From: Pontiellaceae bacterium B12219
GTDB taxonomy: Bacteria > Verrucomicrobiota > Kiritimatiellia > Kiritimatiellales > Pontiellaceae
NCBI GenBank assembly: GCA_029432795.1
Contig: JARNMJ010000047.1
Span: 1-35,483, forward strand
Length of the DNA: 35,483 nt
Direction: 5' to 3'
Shown here: in pieces, positions 1-12,763 of the stretch
How positions within the stretch are numbered: position 1 is the stretch's first letter
How the letters are laid out: each line of letters opens with the position of its first letter
The notes under the pieces: generated by a model
Told to the model about the DNA's origin: nothing
The model's input: only the letters and a program-made list of their open reading frames with translations
The model's database searches: none
Position numbers and translations under genes: made by a program

Positions 1-18
1 TATCTTTCTCTCGGGCAT
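1..18 (-). CDS. first codons of a leftward phage gene cut by the window edge
   Basis: An ATG at 18-16 reads Met-Pro-Glu-Arg-Lys-Ile before leaving the window. It is preceded by a strong Shine-Dalgarno (AAAGGAG) whose GGAG lies about 5 bases before the ATG. The gene follows the tape-measure gene, so a tail or baseplate protein is expected by position only. The ribosome-binding site lies inside a perfect inverted repeat (19-69), described separately. Confidence 0.5.
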
Positions 19-69
19 GGCGATCTCCTTTACTTAATCCAACTGCTATCGTAGCAGTCGGAGATCGCC
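19..69 (-). promoter_or_regulatory. hairpin sequestering the ribosome-binding site
   Basis: In the leftward transcript GGCGATCTCC (69-60) pairs perfectly over 10 bases with GGAGATCGCC (28-19). The second arm contains the Shine-Dalgarno of the gene starting at 18 and ends directly before its ATG. A second perfect hairpin (ACTGCTA/TAGCAGT, 42-58) sits inside. The stop codon of the 45-codon upstream ORF lies in this inner hairpin, so a ribosome finishing that ORF would open the outer stem. That mechanism is inferred; the pairing is seen. Confidence 0.6.
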
Positions 70-183
70 CTCGCCCCCGTATTTGATGGAGAGCCAGTTT
101 TTACACCTTTCCTGCAAACCATCTACATAGCGAGTGCAGAGACCCTGCAGGCTACGAACGCCCGTTTCTGATCTGGCTAGCAT
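46..183 (-). CDS. small phage ORF, 45 aa, unknown function
   Basis: The ATG at 183-181 overlaps the 3' end of the tape-measure gene by 32 bases in another frame and reads 45 codons to TAG at 48-46. I recognise no family. The product is basic and mixed in composition, with a central YVDGLQERCKNWLSIKYGG stretch that looks like real protein. There is no obvious Shine-Dalgarno, so it would depend on coupling to the tape-measure gene. Its stop lies within the hairpin that hides the next gene's ribosome-binding site, which suggests a coupling or leader-peptide role. It could also be a chance open frame. Confidence 0.4.
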   Translation of the reverse strand: MLARSETGVRSLQGLCTRYVDGLQERCKNWLSIKYGGEGDLRLLR

Positions 184-2218
184 TCGTTGCCGTTCTGTTT
201 GAAAGATTTTCTATGGCCTGTTGTTGTGCCGCCATGTGCTGAATTGCCTGCCGAAGTGTTTGTTCGGATGCCGCAAGGTATGTCTTCAGCAATTCGTTCT
301 GTTTTTGAACTGCCGCTGTAACCCCGGAATCATCCAGACGCACATGACCCGGTTTCCAATCATCGGGCCCCACGTGCCCAGGTTTCCAGTCGTCAGATCC
401 AACATGACCCGGTTTCCAATCATCGGGCCCCACGTGCCCAGGTTTCCAATCATCGGATCCAACATGACCCGGCTTCCAGTTATCCGATCCAACCTGACCG
501 GGTTTCCAATCATCGGAACCGACGTGACCCGGTTTCCACTTTTTAGGCTGATCTTGAACAGATCCTAGACTAGAACTGCCGCCGTTTTCTCGCGAAGCTG
601 CTTGGTTCAATTGAGATGCTGCCTGCTCAAGATGACTGGCAGCATTATCCAATCGGCTACTGCTAGAACCTTCTCGTTTTTTAAGTTGCTCCTGTTCCAG
701 CTCTTGAAGCCTCTGTTCCCAGAGCTTCTTTTTATTCTGGTTGTAGCTTTCCTCAAAATTGAAATCTACGCCTGTAGTGTTCTTTACGGCCTCGCCTACC
801 TTCTCGAGATTCATATCCAGATCGCTCCGAAGATCGGAGACGGTGGATTTCATTCCATCGGCGAAATTCTTCAGCGCGCTTTCAACCATGCGCCCATCCA
901 TTTGTCCGGCGAGTTGCGCTTCCTTATCTTTTCCAAGGTCACCGTCATTGATGGCCCCCATTAGCAACCCCTTGAATTCATCGCCGGAAACATTGGGCAT
1001 ACCGTTCAGAAACTCATTTGAGTAGACGCCGTTATCCACCAGATATTTCCGGGCGTCCTCATTCGACATATTACCAACCGCATTAACTGCTGCCTTTTTT
1101 CGGGACTTGCCCATGCCCGGAATATCGAGTTTCAGCAACTCTTCCTTAATCACGGATACGATGGTGATGCCAACCAGCTTCCAGATCTCCAATGAAGCCT
1201 TGATGGCAGCAACCAGTCCTTTAAAAAGAGAATCCACGATATTCACGATCACTGCGTTGACGATTCGCCCGAAACCAGTGCCACCGGTCGCCAGATTATC
1301 CTGGATAATTTTCGATGCTTCCTGAGCGGTCTGGAACGCGGCAATAACTTTGATCCGGGCGCTCTCGACATGCTGATTGATCTTCTCACCAAACTTGGTC
1401 AGGTTGTTTCCGGTTAGAGCCTCGATCAGATCATCAATCACCCGCTTAACCGCTGGGAGGAACTTTTCGCCAAAGTCTGCCTTAAACAGATCGAAGGCAC
1501 CCTTAAGGGTAGAAAGCTTGCCATTGAACGTGGCGCTCATTTCCTCCAGGCCGCCGCCAAACTTTTCGATCATGATTTCCATCAACGCTGCCTGCGCCTG
1601 CTCGAAGCCGGTTGCAGAAATCTCCTGCGACTGCTTCATCTTGTCTTTGTATTTGAAGAGGAAGCTATCGCCCTGGCGTTCGAGCATGATTCCCAGACCC
1701 CGTAACGGCTCCGTTTCCAAGCTTTTTAGCGAGGATGCCACATCCAGGATATTCTTATTCAACGCCGCCGCTGTGGTGGCCACGGCCTCGACGGCTCCTT
1801 GCCCTTCGATACCAACACCTTCCAGGGCAACGCGGGTTTCAACAATCTCCTGGGGAGAAAACGGGGTTTTAGCCGAAAACTGCACGCTCTCTGCAAAAGC
1901 CTTGTCGGCCTCTTCCTTGGTGGCCATGACGGCCTTAAGTTGCGTTCGTAGCGTTTCCATTGAGGCAGCGGACTTGATGCTCGATGCAGCGAACGCCGCG
2001 AAGATCCCACCGCCCGCACCGATTACCGCCATGAATATTTTCAGCGGTCTCAGCAGCGCATCCAGTCCCTTCTTGAGTTTGGCAAAGGAGGCGACGCCGG
2101 TACTCCCCATCCCTTTAATAATAGAGGTCAGTTTTTTAAAGCCGACTGTAGCTTTGGTTAAGCCTGTTCGATCGAAAAGTGATTTCAGATAGATTCTGAT
2201 CTCATTTTTATTGCTCAT
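152..2218 (-). CDS. phage tail tape-measure protein
   Basis: 688 residues from the ATG at 2218, which has GGAG eight bases upstream; an in-frame ATG further upstream lies inside the preceding gene and has no such site. Tape-measure proteins span the tail lumen, set tail length and help DNA entry. Supporting features are an N-terminal helical region, a hydrophobic Gly/Ala segment (about residues 55-85, LLRPLKIFMAVIGAGGG), a motif region KTPFSPQEIVETRVALEGVG, a second long hydrophobic stretch (about 315-355, VNIVDSLFKGLVAAIKASLE), a coiled-coil region near 540-600, and then seven tandem 10-residue repeats (WKPGHVGSDD type) before a final helix. It is short for the family, as for Mu-like tails. 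It overlaps the upstream excisionase-like gene by 11 bases. Assignment rests on architecture and composition, not on a catalytic motif. Confidence 0.75.
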   Translation of the reverse strand: MSNKNEIRIYLKSLFDRTGLTKATVGFKKLTSIIKGMGSTGVASFAKLKKGLDALLRPLKIFMAVIGAGGGIFAAFAASSIKSAASMETLRTQLKAVMATKEEADKAFAESVQFSAKTPFSPQEIVETRVALEGVGIEGQGAVEAVATTAAALNKNILDVASSLKSLETEPLRGLGIMLERQGDSFLFKYKDKMKQSQEISATGFEQAQAALMEIMIEKFGGGLEEMSATFNGKLSTLKGAFDLFKADFGEKFLPAVKRVIDDLIEALTGNNLTKFGEKINQHVESARIKVIAAFQTAQEASKIIQDNLATGGTGFGRIVNAVIVNIVDSLFKGLVAAIKASLEIWKLVGITIVSVIKEELLKLDIPGMGKSRKKAAVNAVGNMSNEDARKYLVDNGVYSNEFLNGMPNVSGDEFKGLLMGAINDGDLGKDKEAQLAGQMDGRMVESALKNFADGMKSTVSDLRSDLDMNLEKVGEAVKNTTGVDFNFEESYNQNKKKLWEQRLQELEQEQLKKREGSSSSRLDNAASHLEQAASQLNQAASRENGGSSSLGSVQDQPKKWKPGHVGSDDWKPGQVGSDNWKPGHVGSDDWKPGHVGPDDWKPGHVGSDDWKPGHVGPDDWKPGHVRLDDSGVTAAVQKQNELLKTYLAASEQTLRQAIQHMAAQQQAIENLSNRTATNASQIRNGRS
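329..538 (-). repeat. seven tandem 30-bp repeats in the tape-measure gene
   Basis: Seven copies of a 30-bp unit encode Trp-Lys-Pro-Gly-His/Gln-Val-Gly/Arg-x-Asp-Asp/Asn. Trp codons recur exactly every 30 bases (538, 508, 478, 448, 418, 388, 358). Units alternate between Ser and Pro at position 8, which suggests duplication of two-unit blocks. The array lies between a coiled-coil region and the terminal helix. Confidence 0.9.
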
Positions 2219-2447
2219 GTGTATTTCTCCATCTATGGCCGAACGTTTTCTGCACGAAGGCTGAGGAAACCGGAAGAATGCGCCAATACGCCCGAGGTGC
2301 GGTTGGAGTTGCAATATTAACCGCTGCCAAGGTCCCGTTCTGGCAAAACTCTAAAACAAGCTTTCTCTCGGTCCTTAGTAAAGAAGTTGCCTGGCTGACC
2401 GTTAAAAGCTTCTTATGTTGCTTAAAACGCCGATCACCCTTTCGCAT
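2208..2447 (-). CDS. excisionase/AlpA-like helix-turn-helix protein
   Basis: 79 residues with a very good Shine-Dalgarno (AGGAGG, about 8 bases before the ATG). The pattern LLTVSQATSLLRTERKLVLE, then FCQNGTLAAVNI, AYWRI and a final helix fits the winged helix-turn-helix seen in excisionases and AlpA-type regulators (x-L-T-hxxAxxLL...G-x-L-x-A...WRI). This kind of domain binds DNA and usually acts as a directionality factor or transcription activator. The end overlaps the tape-measure start by 11 bases, implying translational coupling. Finding it next to a tail gene is unusual and suggests mosaic assembly. Similar domains occur in the early operon (6063-6796), so it may be a paralogue of those. 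Its DNA target is unknown. Confidence 0.6.
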   Translation of the reverse strand: MRKGDRRFKQHKKLLTVSQATSLLRTERKLVLEFCQNGTLAAVNIATPTAPRAYWRILPVSSAFVQKTFGHRWRNTHEQ

Positions 2448-3453: not shown

Positions 3454-3513
3454 ACCTTGTCACTATTTGGTGCTGGCTGAATAAATATTCAACCGTCGAA
3501 CTTTTTTCTACTG
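3412..3513 (-). repeat. duplicated regulatory/start module, copy 2
   Basis: Partner of 2733-2832. It begins in the stop codon of the repressor gene (CAGTAG) and ends in the zinc-ribbon gene starting at 3453. The start-codon inverted repeat is AAAAGTGACA (3443-3452) against TGTCACTATTT (3458-3468). The upstream palindrome is degenerate here compared with copy 1. Confidence 0.8.
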
Positions 3514-4251
3514 GTCTTCCGACAATGATTCTGCCCCCTTCTCTAGTAGGTCCAGCATCCGCGCAACGTCTTCCGAGAAACCTTCCCTCGCCTTGTTTTT
3601 ATCAAGCCTATATTTGTCATAAGCTTCTTGTCCGCCCATACCATCAATCAAATGAAGGTAGCATGTATTGAGAAGTAATCTATATATCTTAATAAGCTCA
3701 GGGTCGCTTTGATCAGGAAACTCTGGTCGGGGGTCCAGCACCTTTAAAACATACTGGAGCATATTCCAGAGTTGCCAGGCATTCTGCCCATCTTGGTAAA
3801 GGACCATTTCTATGTTTTCAAAAAAATCCTGCCTTAAGGATGGAGATTGTTCCTTGGCCAAAAAAACTCCGAAATAGTCCCGGAATACATCTAAAAAACT
3901 GCGCGATTGATCTACATTAACCAATTCGGGTATTGAAGTCCAATTTTGGTAGCTTCGCAAACTTCCTTCACCCGTTGCCAACCACCATTCACTAATGATG
4001 AATACTCGCGCCATTTGAACGGCCATGCCAAAACTCAAAACAGTTCGCCCGGTTTCTAGGTTCGCCAATTTGCTACGAGAAATCCCCAATGGTATTGCAA
4101 AGTCAGGTTGCGTAAATCCGAGAAAGTCTCGCACTTTTTTTATTCTTTTCGCAACATCTAGACCTAATGGATTTAGATTTTCTATGAGTTTTGAACACAT
4201 GCTTTTATAAATAGCAGAATCACTAGACAAATAAAAAGTGATATTTATCAT
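3508..4251 (-). CDS. XRE-family helix-turn-helix repressor of the prophage
   Basis: Up to 247 residues. An XRE helix-turn-helix lies at about residues 33-85 (VAKRIKKVRDFLGFTQPDFA, then IPLGISRSKLANLETGRTVL), with the typical FTQ...LGIS...L..LE.GR pattern. The C-terminal 150 residues are helical, with no visible Ser-Lys LexA-type protease site, so induction would not be by simple autocleavage. The first ATG (4251) lacks a Shine-Dalgarno and is only six bases from the operator; an internal ATG at 4200 leaves the DNA-binding domain intact and may be the true start. It diverges from the Ner-like gene across a perfect palindrome, the arrangement of a lysogeny switch. The role as immunity repressor is inferred from domain and position. 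Confidence 0.75.
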   Translation of the reverse strand: MINITFYLSSDSAIYKSMCSKLIENLNPLGLDVAKRIKKVRDFLGFTQPDFAIPLGISRSKLANLETGRTVLSFGMAVQMARVFIISEWWLATGEGSLRSYQNWTSIPELVNVDQSRSFLDVFRDYFGVFLAKEQSPSLRQDFFENIEMVLYQDGQNAWQLWNMLQYVLKVLDPRPEFPDQSDPELIKIYRLLLNTCYLHLIDGMGGQEAYDKYRLDKNKAREGFSEDVARMLDLLEKGAESLSEDQ

Positions 4252-4256
4252 GTTGC

Positions 4257-4277
4257 ATTACACGTCTAACGTGTAAT
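4257..4277. promoter_or_regulatory. operator palindrome between repressor and early operon
   Basis: Perfect 9-bp arms ATTACACGT and ACGTGTAAT flank CTA in the 38-bp gap between divergent repressor and Ner-like genes. A rightward promoter may overlap it: TTGCAT at 4254 and TAATAT at 4275 (15-bp spacing, short). This would place transcription start almost at the ATG at 4290. Binding by one or both neighbouring proteins is inferred. Confidence 0.75.
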
Positions 4278-4289
4278 ATAAACCTTCTT

Positions 4290-4511
4290 ATGAGCAATTC
4301 ATTAAAGATTATGCTGGCTGCTAATGGATTATCCCTAAAGGGGCTTGCCGAAAGAACGGGCTATAGCTATGGGCACATCCTGAATATAAGCAGCGGATCG
4401 CAAAAATCGCCGAAAGCTCGCCGAAAAATCGCCGCAGCACTCGGAACGAAACCTAGCTCGATCTGGACCGATCTCGAAACCGAAACCTCAACAACGAAGA
4501 GCAAAGTATGA
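4290..4511 (+). CDS. Ner-like helix-turn-helix regulator
   Basis: 73 residues, mostly one helix-turn-helix domain: LKIMLAANGLSLKGLAERTG, YSYGHILNISSGSQKSP, ARRKIAAALGTKPSSIW. This fits small XRE/Ner-type proteins, which in Mu turn down early and repressor transcription by binding the intergenic operator. It is the first gene of the early operon and starts 12 bases after the operator. No Shine-Dalgarno is present, so translation may be leaderless. Its ATGA overlap with the next gene (start 4508) shows coupling. Function is inferred from fold, size and position. Confidence 0.65.
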   Translation: MSNSLKIMLAANGLSLKGLAERTGYSYGHILNISSGSQKSPKARRKIAAALGTKPSSIWTDLETETSTTKSKV

Positions 4512-5041
4512 ACGTATGTAATCGCACTCTCCCCCCATTGGATACATGCATAGCCGATATGGTTATTTTGGATGCCGCTGATGTGGCTCAACTATTCCGT
4601 CTGGAAGCAGACATCCAAGAGGAATCATTCTATGCTCTTCTACTGGATGACGAATTCAACGCATTGCAGCTATTTCCTATTTCCGTAGACATCGCGATGG
4701 AAGTCGCCGATCACGATTGCGCCAAACTTGGACTTACTGCGCCATCCAACGTCGCAGCCATTATTCTTGTACACAACAAGCCTTCCGGAGATTTGGAGCC
4801 GACAAAATTAGATAGTTATTTCGCAGGTAATCTAGCGAGGTATGCCCATTGGCGGACGAATTCGCCTGTCTTGGATCATGTCATAATTGGCCCGAACCCC
4901 ACCGGAAACACAGGCTATCGCAGCCTAAGGCGGGATAACTTCGATTGGATCTTTGGGAGCAAAAAGGCAGCAACAAACTACCTAGGAATCCCCTGGGATA
5001 CTTTTGAATCAACAGATGAAATAACCAATAAGGAGCAATAA
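4508..5041 (+). CDS. RadC-like JAB/MPN-domain protein with degraded metal site
   Basis: 177 residues. The C-terminal half matches the RadC signature: IILVHNKPSGDLEPTKLDSY for the usual HNHPSG...PS..D, followed by SPVLDHVIIGPNPTG for LLDHIIIG. RadC-family proteins have a JAMM-type zinc site (HxH and Asp). Here the second His is Lys (HNK), while the first His, the PSG turn and Asp remain. Hydrolytic activity is therefore doubtful and a binding role is possible. The N-terminal 80 residues are unlike standard RadC. RadC-like genes are common on mobile elements, with unknown role. It overlaps the Ner-like gene (ATGA). Confidence 0.65.
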   Translation: MNVCNRTLPPLDTCIADMVILDAADVAQLFRLEADIQEESFYALLLDDEFNALQLFPISVDIAMEVADHDCAKLGLTAPSNVAAIILVHNKPSGDLEPTKLDSYFAGNLARYAHWRTNSPVLDHVIIGPNPTGNTGYRSLRRDNFDWIFGSKKAATNYLGIPWDTFESTDEITNKEQ

Positions 5042-5043
5042 TA

Positions 5044-5205
5044 GTGAGCGATAAATATATGATTGCGGTGTCAACAAACTACGCAGAGCTATCCGGCAAT
5101 GTGAACCGCCTGATTAATCAGGGGTGGACCCCGTTAGGCGGGGTCAGTGTAATTTCGACGGGGAGTGGAGCGCTCCAGGTAGCTCAGGCCCTCTCTCGGA
5201 AATAA
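5044..5205 (+). CDS. DUF1737-like small protein (GTG start)
   Basis: 53 residues from GTG at 5044, two bases after the RadC-like stop, with AAGGAG eight bases upstream; an internal Met at residue 6 is a less likely start. The pattern YMIAVSTNYAELSGNVNRLI, NQGWTPLGGVSV, then an Ala/Gln-rich end fits DUF1737 (x-V-x-x-L-I-x-x-G-W-x-P-x-G-G-V), a short domain of unknown function often found in phage and accessory genes. Two perfect DNA hairpins (5109-5122 and 5127-5145) lie inside the gene, over the most conserved codons. Confidence 0.65.
   Translation: MSDKYMIAVSTNYAELSGNVNRLINQGWTPLGGVSVISTGSGALQVAQALSRK
5109..5145 (+). promoter_or_regulatory. two adjacent perfect inverted repeats within the DUF1737-like gene
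   Basis: CCTGATTAATCAGG (5109-5122) is a 14-bp perfect palindrome. Four bases later GACCCCG (5127-5133) and CGGGGTC (5139-5145) form a 7-bp GC-rich stem with a five-base loop. As RNA the second is a stable hairpin in the middle of a coding sequence; no U-run follows. It may be a binding site, an attenuator or chance. Confidence 0.4.
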
Positions 5206-5230
5206 CCAAACAAACGTAAGGAGATAGATC

Positions 5231-5854
5231 ATGCCCAATAAACGGCTGAATGGACGCCTAGATGCCGTCAAGGTGTTCATAAAAAAATCAAATGCGGAAA
5301 AGTCTAAGCTGACGGAGTGGCTAAATAAATACAATGAACTGTTGGTTGAGTTGGATGAGCTGGAGCAAATGAAAGGAACGCTGCCTCAGGAAATCGATGC
5401 CTTGCTCTCTTCAGGAAAAATGGACAATACAACCATCGAGTTATTAGCGAAAAAACGCGCCCACCTGGATCTTCTTCCTGCAAGGGAGGATAAAGTCTGC
5501 GAGGCCATTGAGGTGCTCGATGGAGAGTTTGAAGAGGCCTCTGCGGTTATTGAGAACACCATTCGGTCCGCCTGCACATATTATTATGATCTCCAGATGG
5601 AGGCTGCCATAAATGACCTTAAGCAACTTGGCGTATCTGAAGAAGTTGCAAAAAATCAGGCGCTCTTACGGGATGATATTCGTAGTATAGATCCCTATTG
5701 TGCCAATGCCTATTGCGCTTCAGGCGTCGGTTTTGGGGGAAGTGCTGAAAGGGCCCGCCGTCTCCTCTGGGTATTCGAATCCTTTGAAGCGGGATATCAC
5801 CCGCGCTCGAAAGAGTCGGAAAAGTTCCAGAAAAACTGGGTGCCCGCTTCCTAG
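5231..5854 (+). CDS. coiled-coil phage protein, unknown function
   Basis: 207 residues with a good Shine-Dalgarno (AAGGAG, seven bases before the ATG). Residues 1-115 are strongly helical and charged (LTEWLNKYNELLVELDELEQ, KKRAHLDLLPAREDKVCEAI), consistent with a coiled coil. The C-terminal part has YCANAYCASGVGFGGSAERA, with two Cys and a Gly-rich stretch, then RRLLWVFESFEAGYHP. I do not recognise a family. Position in the early operon between the DUF1737-like gene and a structured RNA suggests an accessory early function. It is the last coding sequence before the putative RNA and terminator at 5902-6050. Confidence 0.7.
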   Translation: MPNKRLNGRLDAVKVFIKKSNAEKSKLTEWLNKYNELLVELDELEQMKGTLPQEIDALLSSGKMDNTTIELLAKKRAHLDLLPAREDKVCEAIEVLDGEFEEASAVIENTIRSACTYYYDLQMEAAINDLKQLGVSEEVAKNQALLRDDIRSIDPYCANAYCASGVGFGGSAERARRLLWVFESFEAGYHPRSKESEKFQKNWVPAS

Positions 5855-5901
5855 TCTAAACGCTCACAATGCTCTATCTAAATTTAATTGGTAAATAATT
5901 T

Positions 5902-6050
5902 ATGGTTGGCCGGGGACCCCTCCCGCCTTCGAACAGCAGCGATCTCCTGGTAATTTGTCACTGTTGTAGGGTGGCCGGTTTCCACCCCGGAGGAAGGCTC
6001 AGAGCTTTGCATCTTTCGGCTGAGCTGTTCCCGGCCAACCATTTTTTCTT
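5902..6050 (+). ncRNA. candidate structured small RNA with intrinsic terminator
   Basis: In the 208-bp gap between two early genes, ATGGTTGGCCGGG (5902-5914) pairs perfectly with CCCGGCCAACCAT (6030-6042), extendable to 16 pairs with one G-U, and TTTTTTCTTTT follows at once. Inside are GCCTTC/GAAGGC (5925-5930 with 5993-5998), AACAG/CTGTT (5932-5936 with 5961-5965), GGGTGG/CCACCC (5969-5974 with 5982-5987) and CTCAG/CTGAG (5998-6002 with 6020-6024). Closing stem, nested branches and terminal U-run make a compact RNA of about 145 nt. The layout does not match 6S RNA (single long hairpin), and no reverse transcriptase suggests a retron. Alternatives are an elaborate terminator/attenuator in the operon or a tiny inverted-repeat element. 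There is no protein-coding potential of note. Confidence 0.65.
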
Positions 6051-6062
6051 TTCTACTAGGCT

Positions 6063-6536
6063 ATGCTTAAACCAAAACAAAACATACACGGCTTTATTAT
6101 TCCGAATTCGGATAAGATTTCTCCGCTTACTGCAGCCGGTGTATTAGACTGTTCGCGCGATCATGTCTGCCACTTGATTCATCACGGCGAGCTTAAAGCG
6201 GACAACGCCTCAACTACCCAAATTTCACGATGGGAAATTTCCCGAACCGCACTGATTGATTTTATCATTGCGCGCACCACGATTGCTGAAGAAAATATAG
6301 ATACTTCGAACAGGGCAAGGTTTGATGGTCTTTTGCCTGAGTTCCGCATCATGGATGCACACGTGGTCGCAGACTTTCTGCAGTGTTCGCACTCACACAT
6401 ACTCAACCTTATTCAGAGTCGTAAAATTACCGCAACTGATCTTGCTGTGCGCTGCAACAGTAAACGTAAGTGGTTAAGAATCACCAAAGACTCCCTTACA
6501 GCCTTTATTGTATCAAATCTTGAGGGGGATTATTGA
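6063..6536 (+). CDS. double excisionase-like helix-turn-helix protein
   Basis: 157 residues containing two similar DNA-binding units: about 19-70 (ISPLTAAGVLDCSRDHVCHL, IHHGELKAD, SRWEISRTALIDFI) and about 97-152 (MDAHVVADFLQCSHSHILNL, IQSRKITATDL, KRKWLRITKDSLTAFI). Each matches the excisionase/AlpA pattern: helix-turn-helix, a short hairpin and a W-x-I wing. Such tandem proteins may bridge two DNA sites. The gene begins 12 bases after the U-run of the candidate RNA and overlaps the next gene (TGATG). Role in transposition control or early regulation is inferred from domain and operon. Confidence 0.65.
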   Translation: MLKPKQNIHGFIIPNSDKISPLTAAGVLDCSRDHVCHLIHHGELKADNASTTQISRWEISRTALIDFIIARTTIAEENIDTSNRARFDGLLPEFRIMDAHVVADFLQCSHSHILNLIQSRKITATDLAVRCNSKRKWLRITKDSLTAFIVSNLEGDY

Positions 6537-6796
6537 TGAACGCGAAAACTGTTTTCCGGCCATCCAAGCCTTCTGCATGCCGGGGCAATATGCTGAGCGT
6601 GCATAGGATTGCGCAGCTCCTTGATCTGCCTTCAACAGAAATACGCTATGCCATTGAGTCTGGGAAACTGATTGCCATCGATATTCGAGGCATTGCTTCC
6701 TCCCGTCCAGAATACCGTGTGTTCAAATTCAGTTATACCGCCTGGCAGCAAAGCATGCAGGCTTCCGACAATTTCCAACCCGCAGAGGTCGCATAA
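6536..6796 (+). CDS. excisionase-like helix-turn-helix protein
   Basis: 86 residues from ATG 6536, which shares its A with the upstream TGA; GAGGGGG lies nine bases upstream. A TTG at 6533 would add one residue. The pattern MLSVHRIAQLLDLPSTEIRY, AIESGKLIAIDI, EYRVFKFSYTAWQQ resembles the units of the preceding gene, suggesting duplication. It is probably a DNA-binding accessory factor. The stop TAA overlaps the next ATG (TAATG). Confidence 0.6.
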   Translation: MNAKTVFRPSKPSACRGNMLSVHRIAQLLDLPSTEIRYAIESGKLIAIDIRGIASSRPEYRVFKFSYTAWQQSMQASDNFQPAEVA

Positions 6797-7299
6797 TGGC
6801 AAACCGAAAAACATGGCAGCAGCGTCAGGCAGAACTGAAAAAAGATGCGATTGTTGAAATTCTGAACCGTCCTAAAGGTGAATCGGTCCTGGCTTCCATA
6901 AGGCGCATATCTGCGGCGTATAATGGCAAGCGCCTGCCGGATAACAAACGCCTCCGCCTTTCTGTCAGAAGCCTGATCAGGATTTGGTATTTGTGGAAGA
7001 AAAATCCCGTCGATTCCGTTTTTGATGTAAATTATGCAGGCCCTGAAGTTCAGCCCAGCATTGCCCCGTGGGCAAAGCTACTGATTGTTGAATTTGCAGT
7101 AACGCACGGCTTTACCATTCCCCAGGCCCATGCACGACTCAGCAAAGCCGTTCCTGATCTCCCTTTTTGTGAACGCACCCTGCGCCGCCATATATCCGAA
7201 GCGGACCGAAAACGAATTGCCAAAGCGATCAAACTTAAAAAAGGGAAAGCGGCCCTGGTCCGGGAAGAAGAAGTGTTGAATGCGGGAGGCTTGCAGTGA
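6796..7299 (+). CDS. DNA-binding protein resembling a transposase N-terminal region
   Basis: 167 basic residues: ILNRPKGESVLASIRRISAA, LRLSVRSLIRIWYLWKKNP, then PWAKLLIVEFAVTHGFTIPQ, ERTLRRHISEADRKRIAKAI and a Lys-rich end. The layout of two helical DNA-binding regions with a Trp-rich linker is reminiscent of the site-binding domains of Mu-type transposases without the DDE core, but I cannot name a family. It overlaps neighbours on both sides (TAATG and GTGA). It may bind element ends or act as a regulator. Confidence 0.5.
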   Translation: MANRKTWQQRQAELKKDAIVEILNRPKGESVLASIRRISAAYNGKRLPDNKRLRLSVRSLIRIWYLWKKNPVDSVFDVNYAGPEVQPSIAPWAKLLIVEFAVTHGFTIPQAHARLSKAVPDLPFCERTLRRHISEADRKRIAKAIKLKKGKAALVREEEVLNAGGLQ

Positions 7300-7556
7300 G
7301 TTTTGCAGCCAAACTTAAAAACGCTCAAATTTTGCCTGTGTGGCCCTTTTTGTTTTTATGCACCTCAATGATCGCTGAAAACCAGAAAAGAGGTTTGCAG
7401 AAAATTGCAGGGCGTGCAGGAGGTATCCTGAAGCCGATGGCCGTGCGCTTGTTGGCCGGGTGCACCAATACCCCTCGATTGTTTGAACTACCTACCAAGA
7501 CGGCGGCTCTATATAAGGAAAAGAAAAAGCAGGGAGGATATATCCATGACCGATAA
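7296..7556 (+). CDS. small phage protein, unknown function
   Basis: 86 residues from GTG 7296 (GTGA overlap with the previous stop), with GGGAGG about eight bases upstream. There is one short hydrophobic stretch near residues 12-26 (ILPVWPFLFLCTSMI), then a basic region (KRGLQKIAGRAGG, KEKKKQGG). It overlaps the next gene by 11 bases. It is not recognised. The hydrophobic plus basic layout could fit a small membrane-associated protein. It could also be a read-through of little meaning, although the coupling signals favour a gene. Confidence 0.45.
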   Translation: MSFAAKLKNAQILPVWPFLFLCTSMIAENQKRGLQKIAGRAGGILKPMAVRLLAGCTNTPRLFELPTKTAALYKEKKKQGGYIHDR

Positions 7557-7848
7557 CGCACCTCCGGTACATTTTAACAGTCCCATCATCCAACGGGCCG
7601 CCGAGAAGGCCGGGCTTCCGATCACCGAATTTATTGAATATTGCGTACTGCAAATGATCCGTATTCAGGAAGTTGAACCCGCTGAATTTTTGATGCTTGA
7701 TGGTTCAACGCCCTGGGAGCGGCTGCAAAACGTGCGATTCTCTATCAACTTCTTCGAACGCTATAAAAAGCTCTGTCCGGAAAATCAGGCCACTATGCGT
7801 GAGCAGTTTCCTGAGACCATTTTCCCCGCCACAGAGGAGCAGTCATGA
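7546..7848 (+). CDS. small early protein, unknown function
   Basis: 100 residues from ATG 7546, chosen over an upstream in-frame ATG (7483) because GGAGG stands eight bases before it. N-terminal helices (IIQRAAEKAGLPITEFIEYC, VLQMIRIQEVEPAEFLMLD) are followed by WERLQNVRFSINFFERYKKL. There is no recognisable catalytic motif; the first 40 residues have a weak ribbon-helix-helix flavour. The stop overlaps an ATG (ATGA at 7845) that opens a doubtful frame in the structured RNA region. Confidence 0.6.
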   Translation: MTDNAPPVHFNSPIIQRAAEKAGLPITEFIEYCVLQMIRIQEVEPAEFLMLDGSTPWERLQNVRFSINFFERYKKLCPENQATMREQFPETIFPATEEQS

Positions 7849-8087
7849 AAATAAGAGACGGTTCCATCCTTGACTTTTTCGCCCATTTTGAAATCTTAAA
7901 AAACGTCTCCGCAAAAGACCCACATAGAAATTCCAAACACACGCCTTTTGGCCTGTGCTCATTTGCGCCCTCGGGCGCAGCACTCCTATGTAGTGTCTTT
8001 TGCGGGGATGAGTGCAGGCCTCTTTTTGTAGCTGGACCGCAAACCAGCGAAGTGGCCTGCGAGACTAAACATAGGAGAGTCTCATGA
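7845..8087 (+). CDS. doubtful 80-codon ORF over a structured RNA region
   Basis: ATGA overlap with the upstream gene supports initiation here, and the first 25 or so codons look protein-like (MKIRDGSILDFFAHFEILKN). The remainder (Cys- and Pro-rich, ending CETKHRRVS) coincides base for base with several perfect stems at 7904-8083, so its sequence is better explained by RNA structure. A short leader peptide followed by structure is another option. It overlaps the next start by four bases. Confidence 0.25.
   Translation: MKIRDGSILDFFAHFEILKNVSAKDPHRNSKHTPFGLCSFAPSGAALLCSVFCGDECRPLFVAGPQTSEVACETKHRRVS
7904..8083 (+). ncRNA. candidate structured RNA or leader before the 8084 gene
   Basis: A 16-pair stem (two G-U) joins 7904-7919 to 7995-8010, with CCGCAAAAGAC/GTCTTTTGCGG perfect at its core, and continues inward as ACATAG/CTATGT (7922-7927 with 7986-7991). 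It encloses a bulged hairpin: GTGCT/AGCAC (7955-7959 with 7979-7983) plus GCGCCC/GGGCGC (7965-7970 with 7973-7978). A second domain is GCAGGCC/GGCCTGC (8014-8020 with 8054-8060) around GCTGG/CCAGC (8031-8035 with 8044-8048). Finally GAGACT/AGTCTC (8061-8066 with 8078-8083) loops out the AGGAG of the gene at 8084. It could be a stand-alone RNA or a cis-acting translational control leader. No U-run terminator follows the main stem. Confidence 0.55.
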
Positions 8088-8461
8088 AGCATGACACGGA
8101 AGCAGCAATACCGAAAACCTTCGACAGACCGTCAATGAAATCGCCTGAATGTTCCGGCAAGAAGCATAGCACATTATATCTTTCATTCCCGGGAGAGGAG
8201 TATTCAGTCGAGTTCCCGGAAGCAAAGGCCGCTGCATACCTATTTGTAGCCGACATTATCGACAAGCAAATCAACTGCCGTGGTCTGGGCAATGCTTTTT
8301 CTAACATTAATGCCCTTGCCGAATTGATAGAACACCACCCCCATTTGCAGGAAGAGGCAAAGGTATTCAGGCAGTTATTTGAGGCATCAAAAACCCTAAT
8401 GGCGATTCCCGAAATTGCAGATAAACTTATTTCATACAGAAAAGAGGAGGAAGCGTCATGA
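8084..8461 (+). CDS. small early protein, first of a paralogue pair
   Basis: 125 residues; AGGAG six bases upstream lies in the loop of a six-pair hairpin. The N-terminal half (LYLSFPGEEYSVEFPEAKAA) looks beta-rich, the C-terminal half helical (NAFSNINALAELIEHHPHLQ, KVFRQLFEASKTLMAIPEIA). The helical half resembles that of the next protein, including spacing, so these are diverged tandem duplicates. The ATGA overlap with the next gene implies coupling. There is no known family. By position, just before the transposase, one may think of transposition accessory or immunity functions, but nothing shows this. Confidence 0.6.
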   Translation: MKHDTEAAIPKTFDRPSMKSPECSGKKHSTLYLSFPGEEYSVEFPEAKAAAYLFVADIIDKQINCRGLGNAFSNINALAELIEHHPHLQEEAKVFRQLFEASKTLMAIPEIADKLISYRKEEEAS

Positions 8462-8847
8462 GCACTCAGCCTAATAAACAGCAAAAAGAACGTGGTAAGA
8501 ATGACCGTCAGGAAAAGGCCCTCGAAACCTCTTCATTGCCGAAAAAGGAAACCGTAGTTCATCCCTTTATGGAACGCCTTTTCTCAGCAGATCTAAGGGC
8601 TGTCCATGGACCAACCTTCGGCGATTTATGCAGCGACTCTGTTGAGGGAGAACATCATTTCCTCACATTAAACCTTGATCGCATATTCGCCTTGAATGAT
8701 TGGGACCACATCTTCTGCAGTCTGATGGACCTTGAGTCTGTCATCCGCTATTGCCCGAAACTTAAAAACGAAGCCGGTGCTATTCGCGCCCTGATCGAAG
8801 CCGAAAAGGTTCTCGGCGATTTCTGCCGCGCCGTTAAAGCCTGCTAA
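8458..8847 (+). CDS. small early protein, second of a paralogue pair
   Basis: 129 residues with a hydrophilic, Lys-rich N-terminus (about 1-35) and a C-terminal helical region, DHIFCSLMDLESVIRYCPKL then EAGAIRALIEAEKVLGDFCR, comparable to the end of the preceding protein (aspects: F-x-x-L-x-x-L-x-x-x-I, P-x-L-x-x-E-A, L-x-E-A-x-K-x-L). It ends five bases before the transposase ATG. Unknown function; probably acts with its paralogue. Confidence 0.6.
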   Translation: MSTQPNKQQKERGKNDRQEKALETSSLPKKETVVHPFMERLFSADLRAVHGPTFGDLCSDSVEGEHHFLTLNLDRIFALNDWDHIFCSLMDLESVIRYCPKLKNEAGAIRALIEAEKVLGDFCRAVKAC

Positions 8848-8852
8848 TTAAA

Positions 8853-11243
8853 ATGACTACCCACCGCCAAAACCAAACTATGTACACCGCGTCTGAAATT
8901 GCTTCAGCTGCAGGAATGTCGCGGCGGTGGGCATTCAAGGCGCTGGAGGGCATTACGCCCTCCGGCCAGGTGCTGCAGGGCGGCAAGCCCGTTAATGCCT
9001 GGGCCTTCATGGATCTGCCCGGCGATATCCGCGCCCGGCTCGATGCCCAAGCGCAAAAGTTCTGCTTCAAGGATGCAGAGCAGCTGCTGGACCGTGGCAA
9101 GACGCCATGGCAACCGGAAATCCCCTTGCGCGAAATTGCTGATCGCCATATTCAAAAAGCGCACGATCTCAAACGGGCACTGTTGCCGATCCTTGAAAAG
9201 CTGAGCGATCTCGATTCCCTGGCATCGGTTGAGAAACAGGGACTTCAGCTCTATAAAGAAATCTTTGGCCACGCCGTTTCTTCCAGACATTGGAACCGCC
9301 TGATCATGCGGACCTTTAACCGCGATGCCGGGCGCGATGAATTCCAACGGTTGGAAATCTATTTAGACGATAAACTGACCCGCCGCCCGCAAGATAAATC
9401 CAAAGCCACGAAAGCGGCGAAGGATGCTTTTATCGATGCACGGGCCGCCATCGACATGATTGCCAACATCAATAAGCCCACGCCTAAAGAAAAGCTGATC
9501 ATCTGGACCTACGTCCTTTCCGCCGTCGAAGAGCTTATCCAGGGCGGAACACCGGAAAAGGCAGCGAATAAAGCTGCTCTGGAATTCCTAAATGCGGAAG
9601 CCCTATTTATTGCCAAGTCTGCCGATGCGCTTCGGGCAGCTTTTTATCGAAAAGCCAAGGCCTGGAAAAAGAGCGGCGGCAAGCCTTCGGCAATTAAAGA
9701 CCGCAGAAACGAACGATCCGGCAACCATAAACCCGCCCCTTTATCTGAGGAAGATGAAAACACGATCCTGGCCTATACAACCATTGCAGGCGGGCGACTT
9801 TCCCAAGGATGGCGCGAAGCCCGCCGCGCTGGCGCTCTCAGCCCGGAGCTTATGCAGCGCTACATCCTGAATGAACGCGAGAATAAAAGTTATGTCCCCA
9901 ACCCGATCCGCGCGGCCCTGCAGCATAAAGTGAAGATGGTAGATGATCACCACCACGGCCCGCACCGCGCTAAAATGCAAGGCGCATTCCTGGAGCGCGA
10001 TCCGAGCTCCATCCATTCCGGGGACTGGTTCCAAGGCGATGATACGACTTTGCCGATATATATCCACAACGAGAAAGATCCGCGTAAGCCCACCCGTGGA
10101 CAGTTCCTTATGATGGTGGACGTGCGCACCGGCTTCATTCTCTCTTACGTCATGATTGCCGATAAGGCTTACAATGGTCGCGATGTTCGCAACCTCATCA
10201 CCGTTACGCATGACCGGTGGGGATTGCCCCGAAAGGGATTTTATTTCGAGAACGGAATTTGGCGGGCAAAGACCGTGAAGGGCGGCATTGCCTGGGCCGA
10301 AACGGAGGCGGGCCTAATGTCGGAACTGAACCTTCGTTTTCAACATGCCCGCGAAGCCCGCGCCAAGATTGTGGAACGAGCTTTCGGTTTGCTGCAAAAC
10401 TACTGCGAACGCATTCAGGGCTATGTTGGCCGCGATGAACGTCACGATCACTACGAGAAGATCCAGAAGCAGCTTCAGTCCGTGCGCGGTGGGAAAGTGC
10501 CAAGCGTCGAAATGCTTTTGACACAGGAAGAACTTTGCCAGGCACTGGACTGGATTATCGATCAGGTAAATAATGATGTCCAGAATGGTAAGCTTTGCCC
10601 CGGCCTGACGCCCGAAGAAGCCTACACGAAATACTTCAACTTTAACGACCCGTTGACCCAGCTAGGCCGTACCACCCGCTATCTGTTGGCTGATTCCGTC
10701 GAAAAGGTAACCGTTGGCCGGAATGGAATCAGCCTGCTACGCGGCAAGGATCGCTTCACCTATAAGAGCGAGGAAACCGGGAAACGGCAGGGCATGGAAG
10801 TACTGGCCTGGTTCAGCCCCGAAAATCCGGAAATCCTTTGCGTAACTGATTTAAAGAAAAAGAACCCCTTCACGGTCGAACGCGCCCAGGCCGTTCCGCT
10901 TATGGATGCCGACCCCGACTTGCTCGATCAGGAGAACAGCCGGAACGCAACGCACAACAATTATGGAAAGCGCCTCTATAAGGCCGTCAAACAACGCTTC
11001 CCGGATGAACTACGCGACCGCATGTTCCGACCGACCTACGTCGATGAGCAAACCGCCGAACTTGGCCTGGAAATGGAACACCAACGCGCAGAAGCCGAGA
11101 AATCGAAAAAGAAAACGACCAACCAGAAAAAGAAAATTGCCAAGGGCGGATTCAAACCCTCCCCCATCGCCGAACGCCGTAAAGAACAGGAAAAAGCCGC
11201 ATCCAAGGACAGCGAAGTCCTGGAAATGTTGAGGAACCTATGA
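8853..11243 (+). CDS. MuA-like DDE transposase
   Basis: 796 residues. Residues 10-62 (YTASEIASAAGMSRRWAFKA ... PVNAWAFMDLP) match the Mu-type winged-helix DNA-binding domain. A helical site-binding region follows to about 380. The RNase H-like core has the first acid in GDWFQGDDTTLP (Asp391 or Asp396/397), MMVDVRTGFILSYVMI as the second strand, FYFENG (Glu466) where most members have DNG, and KIVERAFGLLQNY (Glu508) as the last acid. The beta-barrel region and a Lys-rich tail, probably for ATPase contact, complete the protein. It cuts element ends and joins them to target DNA. The Shine-Dalgarno is weak. The next gene overlaps by four bases. Glu in place of Asp in the second motif deserves an alignment check. 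Confidence 0.9.
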   Translation: MTTHRQNQTMYTASEIASAAGMSRRWAFKALEGITPSGQVLQGGKPVNAWAFMDLPGDIRARLDAQAQKFCFKDAEQLLDRGKTPWQPEIPLREIADRHIQKAHDLKRALLPILEKLSDLDSLASVEKQGLQLYKEIFGHAVSSRHWNRLIMRTFNRDAGRDEFQRLEIYLDDKLTRRPQDKSKATKAAKDAFIDARAAIDMIANINKPTPKEKLIIWTYVLSAVEELIQGGTPEKAANKAALEFLNAEALFIAKSADALRAAFYRKAKAWKKSGGKPSAIKDRRNERSGNHKPAPLSEEDENTILAYTTIAGGRLSQGWREARRAGALSPELMQRYILNERENKSYVPNPIRAALQHKVKMVDDHHHGPHRAKMQGAFLERDPSSIHSGDWFQGDDTTLPIYIHNEKDPRKPTRGQFLMMVDVRTGFILSYVMIADKAYNGRDVRNLITVTHDRWGLPRKGFYFENGIWRAKTVKGGIAWAETEAGLMSELNLRFQHAREARAKIVERAFGLLQNYCERIQGYVGRDERHDHYEKIQKQLQSVRGGKVPSVEMLLTQEELCQALDWIIDQVNNDVQNGKLCPGLTPEEAYTKYFNFNDPLTQLGRTTRYLLADSVEKVTVGRNGISLLRGKDRFTYKSEETGKRQGMEVLAWFSPENPEILCVTDLKKKNPFTVERAQAVPLMDADPDLLDQENSRNATHNNYGKRLYKAVKQRFPDELRDRMFRPTYVDEQTAELGLEMEHQRAEAEKSKKKTTNQKKKIAKGGFKPSPIAERRKEQEKAASKDSEVLEMLRNL
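9342..9356. repeat. iterated palindrome TTCCAANNNTTGGAA, prophage copy
   Basis: Exact copy inside the transposase gene (codons for Phe-Gln-Arg-Leu-Glu). A one-mismatch copy lies 61 bases upstream (9281-9295). The same palindrome occurs eight more times, exactly, in the chromosomal part of the window. Confidence 0.8.
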
Positions 11244-12763
11244 GCAGCACACGTAAAGCCGACGGCAGCCGCCCGCTCCGACAAGAACGCTACGCTTCTG
11301 ACCCGGCCTTTAACGAAGGCCTGAAAGCCAGTACCGTGGCGCGAAAATGCGGAGTATTCTCCAATCCAGTCCATAAGGAACTTGCGCTGCATCTCCAATT
11401 CATTTCAATGCAACCGGGTGGCCTATCCGTCTTTGTTTCTGATTTTCTGACCCGCTACGGCGACCGAATCGGCAGCAAAGCTATGCGCCGGAACCTTCAC
11501 ATTAAAACGTTTAATGCGGATCAGGTGCGCCAAGTACGGGATGAACTCGGGTGCGCCAAAGATCAGTTCCCCCTGAAAGGGGAATGGATCGGATCGCTTT
11601 GGGAAGGCCCAATTCAAGATAATTGGGAGGACGACAACGACTTTGAATACCGGATGGATAATTGGCGGAAAGAAAAGAACCGTGAGGCAGCCAATAACCC
11701 CACGAGCTATCCCGCCCAAGCCATTATTGATCACTGTATGGATCAGGCTGAGTCCTGGCTTGAACAATGGTTCATAGATTTTTGCCTGGATCCAGCAGTA
11801 AGCCTTGATTTCCCGCCCGGCTGGTTCCATGAAATTGAAAGCTCTCTGACTGACTACTTCAATGACCGGCGCATCGACACGTTGGCCGGGAAGGTAGTGA
11901 CCTCTATAGGGGAAGAAATCAATGACGCCCTTGATTATGCCTGGGAAGAAAAAGTTCTGGTCCATATCAACGGAGTTGCCCGCATGGGCAAGACCTATCA
12001 GGTAAAGCAATGGTGCAACGCCCATCCGGGCCGCGTGCGTTATGTCCAGGTCCCTTCCGGAAATGATGACATAAGTTTTCTTCGCGCTATCGCCCGCGCC
12101 CTGGGCACCGCTTCAGGCAGTGCCATGAAAACAACACAGATCAAACGACAAATTGAAGATGCCATTCAGGATTCAGGCATCATGCTTGTTTTTGATGAGG
12201 CACATTATCTATTCCCCCAATATAAAGACGTTCGCAGCTCTCCGCGCCGGATTAACTGGCTGCTGACCGAAGTGGTCAACAAAGGAATTCCCGTTGCAAT
12301 CATCACCACCCCGCAATTTGATATGTCGCAAAAAGCCATTGTGAACGGATCTGGATGGGCAGATGAGCAGCTCACAGGCCGCATTGCGTTCCGCCTTGAT
12401 CTTCCGCCTGTACTGCCAGCTGAAGACCTGACAGATATAGCAAAACACTATTTTCCGGAAGCATCCAAAGAAGTATCAGGAATCCTTAGTTGGTACGCCC
12501 ACCGATCCGGCAAATATCTGGCAGGCCTTGAAGCCGTTTCCAAACGCGCCCGTTTTCTGGCCCGCAAAACAGGAAGAAGCTCCCCGAACGGGTCAGACCT
12601 GAAGGCGGCAATGACTCAGGTTGATCCGGCCATTGCAGAAATTTTTAAACAGAATAAAGAACCTCAGAAACAGATTAAACAACCGGCAATAGAAAAGCCG
12701 GTTTACAAACCCTCTGCACGACCAGTGCAGGCCACTTGCGAGAAGACTGCAGTAACCGCGTAA
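11240..12763 (+). CDS. MuB-like AAA+ transposition ATPase
   Basis: 507 residues. Walker A at 245-252 (GVARMGKT) and Walker B at 316-320 (VFDEA) followed by HYLFPQ identify a MuB/TnsC-type AAA ATPase, which selects target DNA and activates the transposase. Arg-rich sensor regions follow (SSPRRINWLLTEVVNKG, TGRIAFRLDLPPVLP). A Lys/Pro-rich tail ends the protein. MuB is 312 residues; here about 230 residues precede the ATPase core. Residues 23-45 (AFNEGLKASTVARKCG) could be the usual small helix-turn-helix, but much of the remaining N-terminus is new to me. The start overlaps the transposase stop (ATGA), and the gene ends the operon. Confidence 0.85.
   Translation: MSSTRKADGSRPLRQERYASDPAFNEGLKASTVARKCGVFSNPVHKELALHLQFISMQPGGLSVFVSDFLTRYGDRIGSKAMRRNLHIKTFNADQVRQVRDELGCAKDQFPLKGEWIGSLWEGPIQDNWEDDNDFEYRMDNWRKEKNREAANNPTSYPAQAIIDHCMDQAESWLEQWFIDFCLDPAVSLDFPPGWFHEIESSLTDYFNDRRIDTLAGKVVTSIGEEINDALDYAWEEKVLVHINGVARMGKTYQVKQWCNAHPGRVRYVQVPSGNDDISFLRAIARALGTASGSAMKTTQIKRQIEDAIQDSGIMLVFDEAHYLFPQYKDVRSSPRRINWLLTEVVNKGIPVAIITTPQFDMSQKAIVNGSGWADEQLTGRIAFRLDLPPVLPAEDLTDIAKHYFPEASKEVSGILSWYAHRSGKYLAGLEAVSKRARFLARKTGRSSPNGSDLKAAMTQVDPAIAEIFKQNKEPQKQIKQPAIEKPVYKPSARPVQATCEKTAVTA

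Follow-up and report, generated by a model that had tools for sequence, protein, structure and literature searches.

A predicted hairpin, conserved in structure, over the transposase start at the left end of an ISL3-family insertion sequence

The insertion sequences (IS) IS10 and IS50 (Tn10, Tn5), whose transposases belong to families other than ISL3, are reportedly protected from external promoters, as Davis, Simons and Kleckner are said to have described in 1985.

The passages of PMC3196728 that deal with IS200 describe a stem-loop that occludes the transposase ribosome-binding site and a second stem-loop that ends impinging transcripts, and those of PMC8450116 describe an antisense RNA of the same element. 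Antisense and Hfq control of other IS appears in sections of PMC8450116, PMC4265352, PMC5006887, and PMC10266640. In portions of PMC2965389, 5′ terminators of IS including ISL3, mainly from Firmicutes, are presented as 'mobile attenuators' that block expression in transcribed regions. No report of a translation-start hairpin in ISL3 was found at the title and abstract level, which is weak evidence of absence, with subscription papers outside the scope of the search.

The locus described here resembles some of these systems in that the Shine-Dalgarno (SD) sequence and the start codon lie in the 3′ arm of a hairpin whose 5′ arm lies near the IS end, as in hairpins of the IS10/IS50/IS200 kind. 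As in IS10 and IS50, read-through transcripts would have their transposase start closed by an inverted repeat near the IS end; in this element, part of the 5′ arm comes from the terminal repeat and the stem includes codon 2. Like IS200, it has a stem-loop over the transposase ribosome-binding site, but no terminator-like site was found in window 1–200, and the element is bounded by terminal inverted repeats and encodes a DDE transposase. The 'mobile attenuators', as the portions of PMC2965389 define them, are predicted transcription terminators, whereas the hairpin of this locus has no T-run; since its arm covers the SD and the start codon, its action would be on translation, unlike that of the ISL3 5′ terminators.

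An ISL3-family insertion sequence at the contig end

The window, by which we mean the whole 35,483-nt stretch analysed, is contig C215 of genome G000 (Pontiellaceae bacterium B12219), and the window start is the contig end. Positions 1–95 are the left end of an ISL3-family IS, non-phage DNA cut by the contig end. The features are as follows.

1–95, minus strand: left end of the ISL3-family IS; its 95 bp also terminate contigs C243 and C2
1–18, minus strand: first six codons (MPERKI...) of the transposase gene, ATG at 18–16
13–17, minus strand: last two start-codon bases (UG) and codon 2, paired with 76–72 in the minimum-free-energy (MFE) structure
19–28, minus strand: 3′ arm of the outer stem, GGAGATCGCC, containing the SD GGAG at 28–25
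41–59, minus strand: inner hairpin GACTGCTA-CGA-TAGCAGTT, stem 59–52 / 48–41
60–69, minus strand: 5′ arm of the outer stem, GGCGATCTCC, from inverted-repeat and fold analysis
66–95, minus strand: left terminal inverted repeat of about 30 bp, GGCTCTCCATCAAATACGGGGGCGAGGGCG
72–76, minus strand: part of the terminal repeat that lengthens the outer stem, paired with 17–13 in the MFE structure
96–103, minus strand: 8-bp target-site duplication TAAAAACT, the same 8 bp as past the right end on C221
46–183, minus strand: 45-codon ORF that runs from phage sequence into the IS end and stops at TAG (48–46)
152–2314, minus strand: 720-aa tape-measure-like phage ORF (tblastn), reading towards the IS

Window 1–95 matches the contig ends of C243 and C2 with zero mismatches, the flanks being unrelated right up to GGCTCTCC, and shares 93% identity with the left end of a complete element (1289 bp) in G027, a genome of the same genus in which copies 1289 and 1290 bp long are flanked by exact 8-bp duplications. 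An inverted copy of about 30 bp of the left repeat is present at the right ends in C209, C198, and C221 and in complete relatives, so that both ends share about 30 bp beginning with GGCTCTCC; ISL3 terminal inverted repeats typically start with GG[CT]TCT. The ends of C209, C198, and C221 are identical over the 84 bases compared and encode GFKNFENYRLRVIVLCG followed by a stop, resembling the C-terminus of P0001 and P0002, the complete 391-aa transposases of G027. The six contig ends are read as belonging to a single IS, three of them left and three right, with an interior that was unassembled or unbinned. Specifically, the target duplication TAAAAACT links the window flank with the C221 flank and AAAAGCGG links C2 with C209, while the flanks of C243 (GCGAAGCC) and C198 (AAATATAC) show no duplication, so two of the three end pairs match. 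Exact 8-bp duplications were found in 10 of 28 relatives, and 8 bp is the length typical of the ISL3 family.

The gene with its ATG at 18, which the sequence-only reading took for a phage gene, is, judged by sequence, an ISL3-family transposase. MPERKI also begins the complete 391-aa transposase P0001 of G027, which matches PF01610 (Pfam, 1.3e-58) and NF033550 (NCBIfam, 8.6e-79); the ISL3 match is that of P0001, the window itself holding codons 1–6. A search of G000 returned no full transposase gene and one 97-residue match with 64% identity (E ≤ 1e-30).

On the other side of the junction, the co-oriented 720-aa ORF ends 56 bp short of the IS. Its best tblastn match to annotated tape measure proteins has an E value of 2e-8 (~27% identity over 26% of the query), and Pfam and PHROG gave no match at 1e-3. 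Near the C-terminus of this tape-measure-like protein, window 331–540 encodes seven tandem copies of a WKPGHVGSDD-type decapeptide. Joining the two flanks without the IS would give, from the start of the 45-codon ORF, an ORF of 55 codons. The last 10 kb of C221, past the IS, contain a tRNA-Leu gene and bacterial housekeeping genes, the five ORFs tested matching ThiC, a biotin/thiamin-type radical SAM enzyme, a dihydrouridine synthase, thiamine phosphate synthase, and an enoyl-ACP-reductase-like enzyme; no tail gene was recognised in the 10 kb examined. What lies beyond the IS is thus chromosome, not tail genes.

These neighbours bear on an earlier proposal that translational coupling at the hairpin sets the ratio of two tail proteins. 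The stop of the 45-codon ORF does fall in the inner hairpin (TAG at 48–46), as had been pointed out, and a ribosome there would cover the 5′ arm, so translation of an upstream phage ORF might open the hairpin and activate the downstream gene. As a phage device, such coupling is nevertheless extremely improbable: the hairpin is part of an IS and recurs at unrelated sites, the gene downstream is a transposase, and chromosome with a tRNA-Leu gene follows. The pair of tail proteins dissolves as well, since the 45-codon ORF consists of phage sequence joined to the IS end, and a second tail protein was not found. Coupling would be real only as an accident of the frame of this insertion, in which a ribosome could open the hairpin of this copy.

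A phage regulatory device was ruled out, as the 95 bp recur at unrelated sites, and a search of phage and plasmid collections with these 95 bp gave no match. Further into the window (3508–12763), a repressor-like ORF on the minus strand is followed by plus-strand genes including a RadC-like, a 796-aa, and a 507-aa ORF, the last matching AAA_22 and phrog_296 'DNA transposition protein'; this gene set suggests a Mu-like transposable phage.

Three other loci carry ends of this element or its subfamily. A 58-bp left-end remnant of the same IS, in which the outer 3′ arm and the start codon are missing, lies at 1501–1558 of locus L004 (G000:C223), directly beside a tRNA-Arg gene (1420–1496). In L053 (G016:C38:16600-20300), ISL3 ends of the same subfamily enclose, at 903–2786, a flavodoxin ORF (1695–2201; PF12641, 2.3e-43) and transposase remnants; this element is an IS derivative with a passenger gene. 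In L057 (G019:C44:116900-118300), a MITE-like 280-bp stretch (529–808), too short for a transposase, lies between the same inverted repeats.

Fold and conservation of the left-end hairpin

On the minus strand, the outer arms (69–60 and 28–19) are perfect 10-nt inverted repeats with a spacing of 31 nt, and the 3′ arm, including its GGAG, abuts the ATG (18–16), exactly where the sequence-only reading had placed them. The second hairpin inside, which that reading called perfect, is present but not quite perfect, because one G-U pair stands among seven Watson-Crick pairs. The 55-nt hairpin has an MFE of −27.2 kcal/mol (z −6.4), which was equalled by 0 of 200 shuffles. In a 120-nt context, the outer stem gains five pairs (76–72 with 17–13) and reaches codon 2 and the last two bases of the AUG, leaving its A unpaired. 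Perfect 10-bp inverted repeats are in themselves not rare, seven such pairs (loop 3–40) being present in the window against a mean of 1.5 and a maximum of 4 in 30 shuffles; what exceeds chance at the hairpin is its fold energy, its placement, and its conservation with covariation in relatives. Rfam at gathering thresholds identified one tRNA in the window and none of its families at the hairpin.

Relatives were collected by DNA within the genus (9 of 28 genomes) and by protein, the latter giving 26 loci on genome contigs, matches in 6 of 29 genomes of the own family, in 7 of 387 of the phylum, in 9 of 12 chosen genomes, and in 45 of 143 genomes of the family of Legionella rowbothamii, and 4 viral-contig loci. 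Of the 87 5′ ends, 53 were distinct; 47 of these were kept and analysed with the window as 48; the six left out were L102, L103, L156, L123, and the second starts of L084 and L079.

Relatives with transposases of about 40% identity (Legionellaceae, an Arenicellales MAG, and others) share the hairpin, with compensatory changes, and in them the IS end pairs with the SD, the start codon, and codon 2. The arms read GGCGATCTCC/GGAGATCGCC in Pontiella, GGCATCTTAACC/GGTTAAGATGCC in the Arenicellales MAG, and GGCACTTTAATC/GATTAAAGTGCC or GGCATTTTAATC/GATTAAAATGCC in Legionellaceae. In most relatives, the stem takes up at least two of the three start-codon bases, and the weakest pairing is that of L077 and L159. 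The covariation check that had been suggested for the hairpin shows changing arms and retained pairing: among 36 distinct arm pairs, the number that keep a standard pair is 21 at +6, 35 at +5, 35 at +4, 36 at +3, 34 at +2, 26 at +1, 32 at −1, and 33 to 35 at −2 to −7, and only 4 to 10 at −8 to −10. The inner hairpin occupies the same place in relatives with unrelated sequences. By these comparisons, the predicted structure of the hairpin is conserved across changes of sequence.

Covariation extends to the start codon. In Legionellaceae, GTG starts have C opposite G1 in 28 of 28 distinct 5′ ends, whereas of the 8 with ATG starts 6 have T opposite and 2 have C, a pattern that would fit a change of the start codon followed by one of the IS end, although the counts include shared descent. 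Furthermore, the ends of L079 and L159 (ATGTCC or TTGTCC) have A opposite T+4. When arms were swapped among 11 representatives, not all independent, swapped arms formed 4.26 of 7 pairs at −1 to −7 and own arms 6.27, the latter value being reached by 0 of 20,000 random pairings; L077 pairs better with the 3′ arm of another element. Ranked by duplex energy, 7 of 9 groups have their own 3′ arm as the best partner, the exceptions being L079 and the Legionellaceae ATG group. Fold and covariation together support the earlier suggestion that the hairpin would hide the ribosome-binding site of the downstream gene.

The same data bear on a role at the DNA level, in which the inverted repeats would be a subterminal site for transposase or a repressor and the RNA fold would be incidental. 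The strong inner palindrome, perfect over 16 bp (GTTAGTCTAGACTAAC) in some Legionellaceae copies, and the location of the 5′ arm partly inside the terminal repeat would fit such a site. Arm sequences that vary among relatives with pairing kept, G-U pairs at +2, +3, −1, and −6, and the presence of the SD and start codon within the arms argue against it. So does a comparison of the two ends in the 28 elements with a located right end, in which the fold z averages −4.0 at left ends versus −0.15 at right ends, the right end of L100 being exceptional (z −3.1). The hairpin is a left-end feature, which speaks against a transposase site common to both ends, and we regard a DNA-level role as very unlikely.

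Predicted accessibility of the transposase start in read-through RNA

We consider it likely that the hairpin is a 5′ regulatory structure of the IS that protects transposase translation against read-through transcripts. A transcript entering from a neighbouring gene, in this copy the co-oriented tape-measure-like gene ending 56 bp upstream, would carry both arms; the inner end of the left terminal repeat would then pair with the SD, start codon, and codon 2 of the transposase, and the folded mRNA would be poorly translated. The element's own transcript would start past the 5′ arm and escape the hairpin. The hairpin thus probably keeps the transposase unmade when neighbouring genes are read through into the IS, and, because folded read-through RNA would be poorly translated, insertion in a transcribed region would not switch on transposition.

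Consistent with this reading, the predicted probability that the SD and start are unpaired, calculated for the 40 of 48 5′ ends with complete left ends, is 0.19 in read-through RNA versus 0.46 with a shuffled leader, and 0.62 in an RNA beginning 25 nt before the start codon (n = 40 for each). L101 and L077 lie near their shuffled leaders (0.47 versus 0.51 and 0.41 versus 0.48). In five Legionellaceae ends (L084, L124, L134, L137, L140), removal of the 5′ arm gives no or only slight opening, and the start stays largely closed.

A transcription-level device was also considered. An intrinsic terminator or transcription attenuator, with a GC-rich stem and a T-run, was rejected, as window 1–200 contains 0 terminator-like sites. 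A promoter scan was made with σ70 frequencies, which may not be those of the host. The best σ70-like site in the window leader is no better than chance (p 0.65), and a −10-like TANNAT in the inner loop was discarded as a promoter since the scan gave nothing above chance in the window. Among the 40 ends, six have a shuffle fraction of 0.05 or less; all six are from Legionellaceae, in whose ends the best site overlaps the start codon in every case, and these six sites could not yield useful mRNA. Because no internal promoter was found, the escape of the native transcript from the hairpin is argued from the IS10/IS50 precedent.

The lack of a detected promoter downstream of the 5′ arm would also fit a general attenuator, in which the element's own transcript carries the whole hairpin as well and the transposase is low always, perhaps until relieved by a factor such as an sRNA. 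A precedent is ISPpu9, whose transposase is under 5′-UTR structure and sRNA control according to the passages of PMC8450116 on that element. The 5′ arm overlaps the terminal repeat, however, leaving little element DNA upstream for a promoter, although flanking DNA might possibly complete one. We regard a general attenuator as unlikely, though less so than the other alternatives, and favour protection against read-through.

Of the frames entering from upstream in the window, one reaches its stop within the inner hairpin and another just beyond it. It is doubtful, but conceivable, that the IS senses translation as well as transcription, with ribosomes that come in some frames from a disrupted gene melting the 5′ arm, and that pairing with the terminal repeat dictates the GTG/ATG start and residue 2 (Pro/Ser) of the transposase. 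The IS would then respond to landing in a translated gene, while untranslated read-through would stay silent.

Start hairpins in other insertion sequences

Individual distant ISL3 elements, e.g. L161, L222, and L225, also have the start codon in a similar stem. When inverted repeats were required, 22 of 61 ISL3 loci were analysable, including the subfamily members L170 and L187, and had a mean unpaired probability of 0.31 versus 0.41 when shuffled, 5 of 22 being at 0.05 or below and 12 of 22 at 0.2 or below. Without that requirement, 8 of 46 analysable loci (of 59) were at p ≤ 0.05, and in the IS256 control 8 of 20 analysable loci (of 30 given). Start codons in the broad ISL3 sample were chosen automatically and are doubtful for some loci (L163 received differing starts in the two analyses). 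Because of this doubt, and because the broad sample does not exceed IS256, we make no ISL3-wide claim; start hairpins are at least as frequent in IS256 as in broad ISL3, so the feature is not peculiar to ISL3.

The start hairpin therefore seems to be a strategy common among IS rather than a novel type of system. It is documented here, with strong covariation, in one ISL3 subfamily, which, with its start-codon covariation, offers a clean comparative case for translational protection of ISL3 transposases, and whose relatives supply natural compensatory pairs. An annotation trap is also corrected, in that a contig ending in an IS resembles a phage operon with a regulatory hairpin.

Finally, in three IS256-type loci from the phylum of G410 (L241, L233, and L254), the transposase starts lie in upstream stems, the arms of the L241 stem being GGCCACTGCGTCATTCTTCT and AGGAGGATGACGCAATGGCC.
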